Positions 48,402 through 52,798 of a DNA stretch of 64,000 nucleotides are shown piece by piece. This DNA is from Leptolyngbya iicbica LK (lineage in GTDB: Bacteria > Cyanobacteriota > Cyanobacteriia > Phormidesmidales > Phormidesmidaceae). The notes beneath the pieces are model-generated. The model did no database searches. It had not been told where the DNA came from and saw only the letters and a program-made list of their open reading frames with translations. A program made the translations under genes and the position numbers. Positions within the stretch are counted from its first letter, which is position 1; every line of letters starts with the position of its first letter. The DNA lies in contig NZ_QVFV01000009.1 of the NCBI RefSeq assembly GCF_004212215.1, positions 1 to 64,000 of the forward strand, written 5' to 3'.

Positions 48402-49751
48402 GTGAGCGAAAAACTGCTGACCCAGATTTACAACGCCTTTGACCCCAAGCGCCCGTTAGAGCCGGACGACCCGTTTTATGTGCAATGCCATGAGGTGCGG
48501 GGTGATGAGAACATCATCAACGAAGTGGGGCGCAACATCATTCGCTCGAATCAGCCGACGTATCAGCTTTACACCGGGCATCGGGGCGTCGGCAAATCCA
48601 CAGAACTGCGGCGACTGCGGCGGTATCTGGAGTCGCAGCAGCGCAAAGTTGTCTACTTTGAAGCGACGGATGATCTGGACGACACCGACGCCAAGTACAC
48701 GGATATTTTGCTGGCCTGCACGCGGCACCTGCTCGATGACCTCCAGCGACAGGCGAATCCGGGGCCGTTGGTGGGCTGGCTTAGGTCGCGCTGGCAATCG
48801 TTGAAAGATCTGGCCCTGACCGAAATCGAGTTTGATGATTTAACGCTACAGCAGCAGATTGGGCAGTTCACCACGTTAACGGCAACGCTGCGCCAGGTGC
48901 CGACGACGCGAAAAACGATTCGAGAACAGGTGGATATTCACTCGATTTCGCTGATTGACGCGCTGAACGAATTTATTGCTGAGGCCCAACGCAACCTGGC
49001 AGCGCAAGAACTGGTGGTGATTGCCGACAACCTTGACCGGATTGGCCTGATTCGGCAGGACGATGGCAAGACCAACCACGATGAAATCTTTATTGACTAC
49101 AGCAGTCAGATGTGTCGGCTGGCCTGCAATGTGATCTACACGGTGCCGATTTCGCTGGTGTACTCGAACCGATCGTCGCAACTGCGGGACAACTATGGCG
49201 ATATTCATGTGTTGCCAATGGTGATGGTACGGCGGCGCGACGGCACGATTCATGAGCCGGGATTGGCCAAAATGAAGGAGCTGGTGGCGAAGCGAGTAGG
49301 GCATTTTACCGACCGGGCGCTGGTGCCAGAGGTCTTTGAAACGGAGACCGTACTCGACAGCTTGTGCTTGATCAGTGGGGGGCACATGCGAGAGCTGATG
49401 CAGTTGGTGCAAACCGCGCTGAACTGGACGGATGAGTTGCCCATCCGGCGGCAGGCGATGTTGCGGGCTGTTGCCAAGGGGCGCGAAGACTATCGCAATG
49501 CGGTGGATGAGGTGGACTGGGCGAAGCTGGCGGAGGTGGCTCAGACGAAGCGCATTCCCAATGATGACGACTATCGCGAACTGCTGTTTAACCGCTGCGT
49601 GTTGGAATATCGCCTGGTGGAAGAGGCTGATGATGATTTGCGGATCGTGCGCTGGCACGACGTGCATCCGCTGATTCAAAAACTGGAACCGTTTGTGAAC
49701 GCGGTGGAGCAACATCAAGCCGCGCAGGAGGATGAGTCCCATGGCGATTGA
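48402..49751 (+). CDS. P-loop ATPase (AAA/ORC-like) of a two-gene ATPase-TPR unit
   Basis: A 449-residue protein with a GTG start. The Walker A motif GHRGVGKST is at residues 59-67 and a Walker B-like LVVIADNLD at about 204-212. A sensor-2 type SGGHMREL lies at about 325-332. The C-terminal ~60 residues (LLFNRCVLEYRLVEEADDDL, then VRWHDVHPLIQKL) look like a winged helix. This layout is that of AAA_16/ORC-like ATPases used in signalling and conflict systems; I do not recognise a named family. Its last ten bases overlap the start of the TPR gene, and that gene's ribosome-binding site AGGAGG lies inside this one, so the two are translationally coupled. Confidence 0.75.
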   Translation: MSEKLLTQIYNAFDPKRPLEPDDPFYVQCHEVRGDENIINEVGRNIIRSNQPTYQLYTGHRGVGKSTELRRLRRYLESQQRKVVYFEATDDLDDTDAKYTDILLACTRHLLDDLQRQANPGPLVGWLRSRWQSLKDLALTEIEFDDLTLQQQIGQFTTLTATLRQVPTTRKTIREQVDIHSISLIDALNEFIAEAQRNLAAQELVVIADNLDRIGLIRQDDGKTNHDEIFIDYSSQMCRLACNVIYTVPISLVYSNRSSQLRDNYGDIHVLPMVMVRRRDGTIHEPGLAKMKELVAKRVGHFTDRALVPEVFETETVLDSLCLISGGHMRELMQLVQTALNWTDELPIRRQAMLRAVAKGREDYRNAVDEVDWAKLAEVAQTKRIPNDDDYRELLFNRCVLEYRLVEEADDDLRIVRWHDVHPLIQKLEPFVNAVEQHQAAQEDESHGD

Positions 49752-51252
49752 CCCGCTAGACCAACTCGACCTGTCGGAACTGCCGGACTACGACGCTGAC
49801 GCGGAGTATGGGGCGCTGCTGCGGGCGTTGCGGCGGCAAGAGGGCTTTGGCATTTTGTTTGTGCGCTGCTCGCCGAGTCAGGGCCGCCAGCTGATTGACG
49901 AATTGAAACAAGATTTACCACAGAAGCGCTGTGCAGAGTTGACGCTGAGGGAGCCGCTAAAAGATGGGGACTTTTTTGGGTTTGCGGCTGCATTTGTGGC
50001 GGAGCATCCGGCGGATGTGGTGTTTGTGCAGGGCATGGAGCACTCGCTGCTGGATTATGAGGAAACCAAGCGACAAAGCGGCTGGACGAAAGCGGAGATT
50101 CAGAACTATAGCTGGAAAGACGTACCGCCCATTTTGCGGAATCTGAACCAGCAGCGAGATCGCTTTCGCAATGAGCTGCCTGTATGTTTTGTGTTTCTAG
50201 TGCCGCTGTTTTTGGTGAAGTACCTGAAGCGCCGGGCACCGGACTTTTTTGATTGGCGATCGGGCGTGTTTGAGCTGCAAGATGACGACGCCACCCTGAA
50301 GCAGCAGGTGGAAGACTGTCGTCTCGAAGACCCGAGCCAAATTAAGAATCTCTCAGCGGGCGAACGGATTCAGCGGGCTTTGGAAATTAAAGATTTGCTG
50401 GATAATCCCACTATCCAGAGCGACCAGCAGTTTCGGTTGTTGTATGACTTAGGCCTCATTCAGTTTGAGAATCAGGATAGCCGCAGCGGCTGGGTAAGCT
50501 GGGACAAGGCGAGTCATGTTCCTGTCTGCGAAGCCGAAAGCTTATATCTACAAGGCAACGTTCTTTACAAACTCAGGCGCTATGAGGAGGCCATTGCCAG
50601 CTATGAGTGCGCCGTCAAGATAAAACCCGACTATCACGAAACTTGGTATAACTGCGGTCTTGCCCTCCATAATTTAGGGCGCTACGAGGAGGCCATTGCC
50701 AGCTATGAGCGCACCGCCGACATCGAACCAGATAATCATTACGCGTGGTACGGCCGCAGCCTTGCCCTCTACAACTTAAGGCGCTACGAAGAGGCCATTG
50801 CCAGCTATGAGCGCGCCGTTGACATCGAACCAGATAATCACTATGCGTGGTACGGCCGCGGTCTTGCTCTCTATAACTTAAGGCGCTATGAAGAGGCCAT
50901 TGCCAGCTATGAGCGCACCGTCGACATCGAACCAGATAATTACCACTCGTGGTACGGCCGCGGTCTTGCCCTCTATAACTTAAGGCGCTACGAAGAGGCC
51001 GTTGCCAGCTATGAGCGCGCCGTCGAGATTAAACCTGACTACCACGAAGCGTGGTACAACCGCGGCATTGCCCTCGATGACTTAGGGCGCTATGAGGACG
51101 CGATCGCTAGCTATGATAAAGCGCTAGAAATTAGGCCGGATTATGAACTTGCTCAGGACAACCGTCAGATTGCTCTTAAAAAGCTGAGATCGCCTTTAAG
51201 GAGGCTAACGTCTTGGTTTCAAGGTTGGTTTGGTAACCAGGCAGTGAGCTAA
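49741..51252 (+). CDS. TPR-repeat protein with N-terminal NTPase-like domain, partner of the ATPase
   Basis: A 503-residue protein. The ATG at 49741 lies 9 bases after AGGAGG; an ATG at 49732 touches the same AGGAGG and is too close. Residues 1 to about 215 form a domain with strands GFGILFVRCSPS, DVVFVQGMEHSLL and ELPVCFVFLVPLFLVKYL. That resembles the beta-strand order of a P-loop NTPase, but there is no Walker A Gly-Lys-Ser/Thr. Irregular helices then lead into six 34-residue TPR units (residues ~278-481) with consensus RRYEEAIASYERAVDIEPDN. The C-terminus is basic. The protein is probably cytosolic, with the TPRs acting as a protein-binding surface. The domain pairing suggests a sensing or scaffold subunit for the ATPase; function unknown. 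Confidence 0.75.
   Translation: MAIDPLDQLDLSELPDYDADAEYGALLRALRRQEGFGILFVRCSPSQGRQLIDELKQDLPQKRCAELTLREPLKDGDFFGFAAAFVAEHPADVVFVQGMEHSLLDYEETKRQSGWTKAEIQNYSWKDVPPILRNLNQQRDRFRNELPVCFVFLVPLFLVKYLKRRAPDFFDWRSGVFELQDDDATLKQQVEDCRLEDPSQIKNLSAGERIQRALEIKDLLDNPTIQSDQQFRLLYDLGLIQFENQDSRSGWVSWDKASHVPVCEAESLYLQGNVLYKLRRYEEAIASYECAVKIKPDYHETWYNCGLALHNLGRYEEAIASYERTADIEPDNHYAWYGRSLALYNLRRYEEAIASYERAVDIEPDNHYAWYGRGLALYNLRRYEEAIASYERTVDIEPDNYHSWYGRGLALYNLRRYEEAVASYERAVEIKPDYHEAWYNRGIALDDLGRYEDAIASYDKALEIRPDYELAQDNRQIALKKLRSPLRRLTSWFQGWFGNQAVS
50572..51183 (+). repeat. Six tandem 102 bp TPR-coding repeats
   Basis: Units start at 50572, 50674, 50776, 50878, 50980 and 51082. Units 3 and 4 differ at only 8 of 102 bases by my count, including synonymous sites, which indicates recent expansion or gene conversion. 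The outer units 1 and 6 are more diverged. Confidence 0.85.
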
Positions 51253-51316
51253 ACCACGTCGAAGTCCAGAACTGGAGCGGTGAGGTCGGATTTCCCTGGC
51301 TGAAGCTAGATGAGAC

Positions 51317-51449
51317 CTAAGAGCGGCGGATGTTGAGGCAGCACCACTCCTGCCGTCGCCACAGCGTCGCCACCACCCAACCATGCTGCTCTAGCGTGTC
51401 CGTTACTAGCTCCGACTGCTTTAGCAAAATACTGCTAAGAATACCCTAG
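51317..51449 (-). pseudogene. Relic of a second prmA 3' end
   Basis: Ungapped alignment with the 3' end of intact prmA (53179-53311) gives about 79% base identity (28 differences in 133 by my count). On the minus strand it encodes 42 residues, [20 protein letters not shown] and onward to CCLNIRRS, of which 37 match PrmA, ending in the same TAG. An in-frame TAG precedes GIL, so only the C-terminal part remains. It lies 65 bp after the TPR gene, in the same orientation as intact prmA. The remaining sequence to 51724 shows only a 13-codon frame near 51592. Confidence 0.8.
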
Positions 51450-51724
51450 ATCCAGTTGCAGGATGAGTAGTACGCGGTAAGCTTTCCAACCAACCATTAA
51501 GATTTTGGTGCAATCACACATCCGCCAGATTGCCACCGTGTGAACTCGTTATACTACAAATAATCCTTGAATTTAGTCGGGAAGGTGTTTTATGGCTGAG
51601 TCGGTAATCAACGCTACGCAACTCTTGATTTAATCGGCAAGGTCAGAAGCTGCTGCTTCACTCTCGATAGTTTCGAGTTCCTTAAGGACCTTGCCTAGCA
51701 ATTGGTTTCTTAGAGGACAAAGCA

Positions 51725-52798
51725 TTGAATTTAGAACAGTTTGGCTGGTGCGCCAACAGCACCAGTGCGCTTGCGTTTGCAAGTTTTGAGCAAGCTGCTT
51801 GGGTGGCCGCTCGCGTCATTGCGGAGCAACGGGGCGCCTATCGGGTTCACACCGGCACCGTCGCATACCCGGCGCAAATAACGGGGCAGTTGCAGCACCG
51901 TACGGTTGACCCATTAATGTTGCCTGCGGTGGGTGACTGGGTGGTTGTAGAACCCCATGCCACACAAAATACCGCCACCATTCACCAAGTGTTGCCCCGG
52001 ACGAGTCAGTTTGTCCGCAAGGTCGCGGGTACGACAACGGCGGGTCAGGTTGTGGCTGCCAATGTGGATACGGTTTTCCTGATGTCGGGATTGGACGGCG
52101 ACTTTAACCTGCGGCGCATTGAGCGGTATTTGGTCACCGCTTGGGATAGTGGGGCGAGTCCCGTCATTGTGTTGAATAAGGTCGATGTCTGCACGGATGT
52201 GGCCGCAACGATCGCCCAGGTGGCGGCGATCGCGATTGGGGTGCCCATTCATGCCGTTAGTGCCGAACTCGGGCGGGGGCTGTCACAGCTCGATCCCTAT
52301 TTGCAACCGGGCAAAACCGTTGCCCTCATTGGTTCATCGGGGGTGGGCAAATCGACCTTGACCAACTATCTGCTGGGTGATGCCCAACAAAGCACTCAAG
52401 CTGTCAGGGCTGACGATAGCCGTGGCCGTCATACCACCACCCATCGGCAACTCATCCGCCTACCGTCCGGGGCTTTATTGATTGACACACCGGGCATGCG
52501 AGAGCTGCAGCTTTGGCAGGTGGGTGCCGGCTTGTCAGAAACCTTTGCCGACATTGAGGCACTGGCCGCTGATTGCAAGTTCCGCGATTGTCAGCATGAC
52601 CAAGAACCCGGTTGTGCTGTGCAAGCGGCGATCGCGGCGGGGCAACTGACCGCTCAGCGCCTACAAAGCTATCAAAAGCTTCAGCGTGAGCAGCAATGGA
52701 TCGAACAGCGTCGTGAGGGACATGCTCACCAAAACACCAAGCGCCGCTGGAAACAGATCACGAAAACCATGCGGCAACGACAGCAGCCTCTGTCGTAG
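51725..52798 (+). CDS. rsgA: Ribosome biogenesis GTPase RsgA
   Basis: A 357-residue circularly permuted GTPase with a TTG start preceded by GAGGA. An OB-fold N-terminal domain (VGDWVVVEPHATQNTATIHQ) is followed by the permuted GTPase motifs: G4 VIVLNKVDV, then G1 LIGSSGVGKST, and G3 LLIDTPGMREL. The C-terminal zinc lobe has the C-x-H-x-C pattern (DCKFRDCQHDQEPGC). RsgA matures the 30S subunit. The gene lies between the prmA relic and the MITE-like element, alone on its strand. Length is normal. Confidence 0.94.
   Translation: MNLEQFGWCANSTSALAFASFEQAAWVAARVIAEQRGAYRVHTGTVAYPAQITGQLQHRTVDPLMLPAVGDWVVVEPHATQNTATIHQVLPRTSQFVRKVAGTTTAGQVVAANVDTVFLMSGLDGDFNLRRIERYLVTAWDSGASPVIVLNKVDVCTDVAATIAQVAAIAIGVPIHAVSAELGRGLSQLDPYLQPGKTVALIGSSGVGKSTLTNYLLGDAQQSTQAVRADDSRGRHTTTHRQLIRLPSGALLIDTPGMRELQLWQVGAGLSETFADIEALAADCKFRDCQHDQEPGCAVQAAIAAGQLTAQRLQSYQKLQREQQWIEQRREGHAHQNTKRRWKQITKTMRQRQQPLS

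Follow-up and report, generated by a model that had tools for sequence, protein, structure and literature searches.

Background

STAND ATPases are described as closed with ADP and as open and multimeric with ATP (PMC6468293), and in MalT and PH0952, according to the same account, the ATPase and a TPR sensor arm belong to a single chain. In the cyanobacterium Leptolyngbya iicbica LK we analyzed a pair of genes, here called A and B, in which ATPase and arm are instead split over two genes, the arm bearing its own dead AAA+ domain, that is, a predicted AAA+ core without a Walker A motif (the N-domain of B). The pair lies in a stretch of 64,000 nucleotides (NCBI RefSeq assembly GCF_004212215.1, contig NZ_QVFV01000009.1, positions 1 to 64,000), hereafter the window. 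We consider it moderately likely that the products of A and B together make up a split STAND-like AAA+ switch, each contributing one subunit.

The nearest published arrangement appears to be the nSTAND2 operon. As described by Kaur et al. 2021 (PMC8195603), it consists of two genes, one with an active STAND module and one with a module whose NTP motifs are eroded; the eroded one carries variable modules, and a hetero-multimer has been proposed. The A-B pair follows this operon plan, active and eroded being judged by motif only and the comparison being made with the published description. The modules differ: in that description those of nSTAND2 are most commonly GT4 or HEPN, whereas the arms of A-B are TPR, WD40-nSTAND1, NACHT, HEAT, CHAT and HetZ-like. 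Pfam scans covering 6 proteins and 7 segments of arms revealed neither GT4 nor HEPN (the queries used for the census of 134 N-domain proteins included neither). Another trait given for nSTAND2 is a conserved arginine finger in both proteins; among the 116 pairs compared below, the N-domain has R142 (116/116) and A has R298 (116/116) and R330 (113), a finger role being assignable only in a complex.

Inactive STAND modules are also part of the iSTAND and iSTAND2 MoxR-vWA ternary systems, where they are reported to be constant, with swappable modules and a concentration in cyanobacteria among others (PMC7159879, PMC8195603); however, no MoxR or vWA gene was recognised beside the pair of the window, and the partner in A-B is an ORC/STAND-type ATPase. 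Anti-phage STANDs (Avs, bacterial NLRs) combine a STAND core with variable repeat sensors and TIR or peptidase effectors, but they are single-chain tripartite proteins, and the available part of that account (PMC10907252) does not mention a dead AAA+ partner. Active AAA+ subunits occur together with inactive ones in the origin recognition complex (ORC). In the clamp loader, delta prime is an inactive AAA+ subunit alongside active ones. Unlike A-B, these are DNA replication machines, and their sequences are not close to those of A and B.

Compared by description, A-B would join a known theme of active and inactive STAND-like pairs with swappable modules. A literature search found no publication on the A-B pair, bioRxiv and most subscription papers lying outside its coverage. 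If the split switch is real, an NLR-like ATPase and its sensor can be separated into two genes linked by a dead AAA+ domain, and what the dead domain and the swapped arms contribute becomes directly testable; moreover, a HetZ-like arm would link such switches to cyanobacterial cell-fate control.

Results

A and B form a conserved pair

Among 194 sampled genomes of cyanobacteria, 48 have homologues of A, a single genome giving as many as 10 matches; within the family to which the window belongs, 55 of 63 genomes have one. The N-domain is outside Pfam and NCBIfam models, yet homologues of the window's N-domain are present in 35 of the same 194 genomes.

Pairing was counted in a set of loci anchored on A, L105-L183, which are the best 79 of 561 relatives retrieved by the motif GHxGxGKSTE without regard to B; as a consequence of this retrieval, Walker A is present in them by construction. 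The count was limited to this set because a second group, L065-L104, had been chosen by hand from A homologues, partly in knowledge of the N-domain matches. Of the complete A's, 66 have 700 bases of room downstream, and in 63 of these a same-strand N-domain gene follows within that distance; counting the double locus (L127 = L128) once gives 62 of 65 different A sequences. The two genes overlap in 30 of these 63 pairs, in 24 of them by exactly 4 bases. In the whole census the N-domain stands downstream of A in 118 of 126 loci. The remaining eight include L094 and L187, in which an A-TIR gene lies between the two, and L222, in which the genes are adjacent and the called start overlaps too far; the N-domain is 2.3-2.8 kb away in L100, L109 and L114, and L105 and L184 have none. 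That A and B belong together, as a preliminary description of the sequence had suggested, is borne out by their conserved adjacency in relatives. The arrangement is not due to chance, since it is found again throughout the phylum and outside it.

The two partners were compared in a set of 116 pairs (A of 400 residues or more, followed within 700 nt by an N-domain match of 120 residues or more, each A sequence being counted once). This set is composed of 64 pairs from L105-L183, 40 from L065-L104 and 12 others, 64 of the A's being retrieved by motif and 52 not. Pairwise distances of A and of the N-domain are strongly correlated, both in the 116 pairs (r=0.93; maximum of 999 permutations 0.23) and in the 84 pairs of the window's clade (r=0.87; maximum of 999 permutations 0.19). 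In 114 clusters one A accompanies one N-domain, and in two loci, L094 and L187, two A's accompany a single B with two N-domains. In L066, L067, L068 and L119 A is found between two N-domain genes, and in three of these four a short copy lacking TPRs stands beside the TPR copy.

Predicted structures of the two proteins

In the AlphaFold model of A (pLDDT 94.2, pTM 0.91, 60 aligned sequences) an AAA+ core is accompanied by a helical lid and, at the C-terminus, by a helix-helix-hairpin-helix region that resembles a winged helix. By VIA-align, where rows with Z within 1 of each other were regarded as tied, A matches TnsC (Z 14.7, 291 residues, 4.3 Å), Drosophila ORC and archaeal Orc/Cdc6 (14.6), an archaeal Walker-type ATPase (14.4) and CED-4 (13.0). 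Foldseek ranks archaeal Cdc6/Orc1 first (2.1e-6), the TM-score normalised by query length being low (0.38). Searches of PDB sequences with A gave weak P-loop matches (best 0.0012) together with unrelated ones, and Pfam, for which as for NCBIfam the best 25 families were considered, gave AAA_16 barely past its cut-off (8e-8) and weaker AAA, KAP and STAND families. The best match in PADLOC-DB 2.0.0 is PDC-S20 (E 0.0011), with no strong match to a system model, and A does not belong to the P-loop ATPase Sll1717 family (NF047389), for which it scores 17.9 bits against a curated cut-off of 75. GxxxxGK[ST] is also present in all 52 A's that were not retrieved through the Walker A motif. P249, R298 and G327 are found in all 116 paired A's, and K65 (115), W418 (115), R33 (114) and P15 (109) are invariant wherever a residue is present. 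With Walker A, Walker B and a modelled AAA+ fold with lid, A is, by prediction, an AAA+ ATPase of the ORC/Cdc6-STAND-TnsC group.

The N-domain of B, whose residues are numbered here from the ATG at 49732, is not covered by any known family: the best Pfam match of residues 1-228 has an E-value of 0.14, and NCBIfam has no match at E up to 1. An alignment of the N-domain that includes the first TPR matched, among PDB sequences, TPR proteins and one phosphate-transport regulator (E 0.89). Its AlphaFold model (pLDDT 89.6, pTM 0.84, 64 sequences) has five strands alternating with helices. Foldseek matched this model to ORC chains (1.8e-4) and to the AAA+ domain of IstB (4.5e-4), at query-length TM-scores of about 0.3, and the best VIA-align match is V. 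cholerae TnsC (Z 11.1, 145 residues, 3.7 Å). All 50 rows listed by VIA-align are, by their titles, AAA+ proteins or complexes containing them; this list re-examines Foldseek's own matches and is not an independent search. The P-loop position is occupied by FVRCSPSQG, and the Walker B strand, VVFVQ, leads into G-M-E. GxxxxGK[ST] occurs in 0 of 116 N-domains, compared with 116 of 116 A's, and for this reason the N-domain, which by its model is an AAA+ core without Walker A, is termed dead. Besides the invariant N139-x-x-R142, D171 is present in all 115 N-domains with a residue there (one has a gap), G101 in 108, and position 168 is R in 84 of 116. As a hypothesis, R142 and R168 could be trans-acting arginine fingers for A.

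The sequence features given in the preliminary description are borne out. The motifs that it read in A (GHRGVGKST, VVIADNLDR, GGHMR and a winged-helix-like end) are all present, and the structure prediction that it proposed supports an AAA+ ATPase fold; the degenerate NTPase-like domain without Walker A that it saw in B corresponds to the predicted AAA+ core, and the family search that it called for matched no housekeeping family, since no Pfam or NCBIfam family covers residues 1-228. Its six TPR units in B were likewise recovered by Pfam.

The arms of B

In the window the TPRs are encoded by DNA that repeats in tandem with a 102-bp period (5.3 copies, 83% matches), a pattern suggesting that duplications enlarged the array. 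Against PADLOC-DB 2.0.0, B matched TPR models only. Elsewhere the sequence beyond the N-domain is highly variable, ranging from 8 to 1432 residues in the 54 complete B's of the A-anchored set. A census of 134 distinct N-domain proteins counted 13 complete proteins with nSTAND1 and WD40, 5 with nSTAND1 without WD40 and 7 consisting of the N-domain with little else, as well as one complete case each of CHAT, HetZ-like, NACHT and NACHT-HEAT; 12 further complete B's match TPR and a HEAT query that may overlap TPR, and, apart from the proteins with TPR only, which are considered below, the remainder are truncated or unassigned. Because of this possible overlap, HEAT arms are claimed only for L163 and L171, from Pfam, which found NACHT and HEAT in the former and HEAT in the latter. 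CHAT, a caspase-like domain, is present in L133 (Pfam 3.8e-54).

Other domains accompany the N-domain in further loci. The arm in L065 is HetZ-related protein 2 (NCBIfam 513 bits, cut-off 400). This fused protein of 809 aa is one of 50 matches listed for HetZ-related protein 2, which otherwise occurs in frames of 316-463 aa, and a second copy is found in the same genome. The whole B (L065:10706-13135) is made of the N-domain, TPRs and the HetZ-related protein 2 module, the copy elsewhere in that genome being a lone one. Short N-domain proteins are followed in L115 by a HetZ-related gene (554 bits, short of the 612 required) and in L112 by a SpoIIE phosphatase gene (Pfam 5.4e-58). In L094 and L187 the gene order is A, an A-TIR fusion and a single B with two N-domains and nSTAND1; Pfam recognises the TIR of L094 clearly (TIR_2 1.2e-31), and for that of L187 there is a weak NCBIfam match (4.1e-5). 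These three-gene units extend over L094:3370-10670 and, on a Calothrix plasmid, L187:7989-15496. The genome of the window itself has a paralogous pair on contig C2 (L104:6563-10632), whose B carries nSTAND1 instead of TPRs. A natural fusion of A to the N-domain did not turn up in the general results, no search being aimed at fusions.

A proposed split switch and its alternatives

The split STAND-like switch is based on predicted folds, the lack of Walker A in B, conserved pairing, correlated distances and arm swapping. In the mechanism that we propose, A would bind and presumably hydrolyse ATP, and the dead AAA+ N-domain would pack on A, probably beside its nucleotide site, coupling the state of A to the arm of B. 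In the window this arm, a TPR solenoid, may act as a sensor, its ligand being either a signal protein or a target; ATP loading and release of the arm would then lead to an A/B multimer that signals. In relatives the arm or a fused domain gives a plausible output (TIR, CHAT, NACHT, nSTAND1-WD40, HetZ-like). A docking role of the N-domain would fit the loci with two A's and two N-domains, the constancy of A and N-domain while the arms change, and the invariant N139-R142. The heteromeric partnership suggested by the preliminary description is favoured by operon conservation, by the correlated distances and by the two loci with two A's and two N-domains, while physical contact can only be presumed.

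Several results weigh against this reading. By profile the N-domain has no similarity to A (hhalign probability 0.2), and the Foldseek TM-scores of the listed matches of both models are low, about 0.3-0.4 by query length; as a consequence, the dead-AAA+ assignment depends on predicted structure only. The distance correlation indicates joint inheritance and not contact, because shared descent alone can produce it, and the A-anchored set comes almost entirely from the window's clade (1 of 64 pairs is outside). Pairing is not strict: one A is accompanied by two N-proteins in four clusters, and among the clusters counted 12 A's and 13 N-domains lack a partner, several of them through a split or truncated gene or a contig end. 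The closest relative of A among the best 79 of 561 (L105:4002-6056, about 70% identical) is without a B; the next gene there encodes a product of 164 aa that matches neither Pfam nor NCBIfam and in which a hydrophobic stretch can be made out by eye. In the arm census, 71 of the 134 are complete proteins with TPR only and no recognised effector. No match of A was found in 50,697 phage records. Moreover, the 72 PADLOC families that matched near neighbours at 1e-10 (100 of 229 eligible genes within 2.5 kb, from A-anchored loci) each occur in no more than 2 of the 100.

These near-neighbour matches, with one or two members each, are SngC, PDC-S17, PDC-S03, mads_3, BrxHI, GajB and others. Far neighbours (all 50 eligible genes at more than 5.5 kb) matched 10 PADLOC families; twice as many genes were sampled near the pair as far from it, and what was tallied is families rather than members with a match. 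There is no third conserved gene, the commonest Pfam family being found in 5 of the 100 near neighbours. The neighbourhood survey suggested by the preliminary description thus upheld the conservation of the pair (63/66) and gave no clear sign, for or against, of the enrichment near defence genes that it had considered, no PADLOC family exceeding 2 of 100. A putative role in conflict draws on domain fusions only: TIR, NACHT, caspase-like and other STAND modules are, in the published accounts, the vocabulary of conflict systems (PMC7159879, PMC8195603). In our judgement an immune or self-recognition use has a probability of about one half and a regulatory use of about a third, and we slightly favour use against invaders or in self-recognition over an exclusively developmental one.

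The regulatory alternative, in which A-B would be a regulatory or developmental module of cyanobacteria rather than an immune one and would pass on an internal state to the control of transcription or of sigma factors, is possible but on the whole rather doubtful. It could explain the HetZ-related protein 2 fusion in L065 and the HetZ-like and SpoIIE genes that follow a bare N-domain in L115 and L112, and it is in keeping with the lack of a recurrent defence family among the 100 sampled neighbours, with the proximity of the pair to prmA-serA-hemN in the window (rsgA lying between) and in a genome of the same genus, and with the rarity of the N-domain outside cyanobacteria (5/149 and 6/229 genomes). 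Against it stand the TIR, CHAT, NACHT and nSTAND1-WD40 partners, which belong to the conflict vocabulary as published (PMC7159879, PMC8195603), and the fact that the HetZ fusion of L065 is an extra copy beside a lone one, as if a host protein had been captured as bait. Membership of the published nSTAND2 two-gene family, with TPR replacing the usual effectors, seems improbable: the described plan is the same, an operon of an active and an eroded STAND module with the eroded one fused to variable modules (PMC8195603), but its commonest modules, GT4 and HEPN, are both missing from the arm proteins and segments scanned.

Adjacency and correlated distances would also be compatible with operon neighbours that are inherited together and whose products never touch. 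We regard this as distinctly unlikely, as two A's accompany two N-domains in L094 and L187, and as the arms swap while A and the N-domain remain together. The structural match of A to TnsC, the best one although tied with Orc/Cdc6 (Z 14.7), would suit a transposition helper in which B selects the target; by eye, however, there is no transposase among the open reading frames listed around the pair of the window, nor is there one in the 25 most frequent Pfam families of the 100 neighbours, and this explanation is hardly credible.

Returning to the split switch, a more general and more speculative version of it can be formulated, to which we give tentative and limited credence: a split-NLR platform, in which a constant ATPase and a constant dead AAA+ domain would form a dock for any sensor or effector, the dead domain gating the ATPase in trans, and which would provide cyanobacteria with a paralogous immune or self-recognition repertoire. 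The modules that could be plugged into such a platform are TPR, WD40-STAND, NACHT, CHAT, TIR and captured host regulators such as HetZ.

Layout of the locus and the prmA relic

Coordinates of the features are collected in Table 1. Genes were called with a simple longest open reading frame script, and their start positions are rough. Gene B has two candidate ATG codons, at 49732 and 49741. The first is directly abutted by the AGGAGG at 49726-49731, which sits 9 bases ahead of the second; because of this spacing, 49741 is the likely start, which agrees with the overlap of 11 bases with gene A given in the preliminary description.

Table 1. Features of the A-B locus, in positions of the window
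Feature	Position	Strand	Details
Gene A: AAA+ ATPase (predicted), ORC/Cdc6-STAND-TnsC type, with lid and winged-helix-like end	48402..49751	+	449 aa, GTG start
Walker A of A, GHRGVGKST, residues 59-67	48576..48602	+	GxxxxGK[ST] in 116/116 paired A's
Walker B of A, VVIADNLDR	49014..49040	+	D209 in 115/116
Sensor-2-like motif of A, GGHMR	49377..49391	+	G327 116/116, R330 113/116
C-terminal winged-helix-like region of A, residues 370-447	49509..49742	+	modelled secondary structure: helix, helix, beta hairpin, helix
Ribosome-binding site of gene B, AGGAGG, within gene A	49726..49731	+	sequence
Gene B: dead AAA+ domain (predicted) and TPR arm	49741..51252	+	alternative ATG at 49732
N-domain of B: AAA+ core (predicted) without Walker A, residues 20-195	49789..50316	+	AlphaFold pLDDT 89.6; Foldseek ORC, IstB, Hda; VIA Z 11.1 TnsC
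Invariant N139-x-x-R142 of the N-domain	50146..50157	+	116/116
Six TPR units of B	50554..51153	+	Pfam TPR_1, 6 stretches; 102-bp DNA repeat at 50575-51116
prmA 3'-end relic, not part of the pair	51316..51452	-	79% over 137 bp to intact prmA 3' end

Genes recognised around the pair are TetR, RsgA and PrmA, which were scanned, and serA and hemN, by eye. prmA itself is intact, PF06325 covering nearly its full length, and the relic and rsgA (51725-52798) lie between it and the pair. In a genome of the same genus (L257) the order is hemN, serA and prmA, followed by B and A in convergent orientation; prmA and B are separated by 49 bases, and rsgA is located elsewhere in that genome. The relic occupies the position at which a convergent prmA would end in such an arrangement. 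Since the pair of L257 directly adjoins prmA and rsgA sits elsewhere, the relic appears to mark a later insertion in which rsgA moved in, the older arrangement being judged from this single genome. The rsgA loci retrieved from five genomes of the same genus have neither prmA, serA nor the pair alongside. The relic noted in the preliminary description is thus real (79% over 137 bp), and its interpretation as a boundary of the A-B pair was rejected on the basis of the L257 synteny.

Occurrence beyond cyanobacteria

The pair also occurs in a few Acidobacteriota and gammaproteobacteria. An N-domain profile built from all clades matched 5 of 149 genomes in the phylum of an Acidobacteria metagenome-assembled genome (MAG) and 6 of 229 in the class of a Chromatiaceae MAG, the centre genome being counted in each case. 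Of 18 N-domain rows in other phyla, 14 loci were examined; A adjoins the N-domain in 12 of them, all except L225 and L226, and two of the 12, L231 and L232, had first been retrieved through A. N-NACHT arms are found here in L219 and L221.

Among plasmids, 9 of 72,556 records matched, all below 60% identity. A scan of viral contigs (IMG/VR) yielded two loci: L063:4953-5933 is an N-domain gene with no A in the flanks examined, and L064:1-375 is an N-domain gene cut by the contig end, with nearby genes that are phage-like by eye. On a Nostoc plasmid (L184:6339-9263) a gene for a MoxR ATPase is immediately followed by one whose product has a SAV_2336 domain at its N-terminus fused to an A-like ATPase domain.

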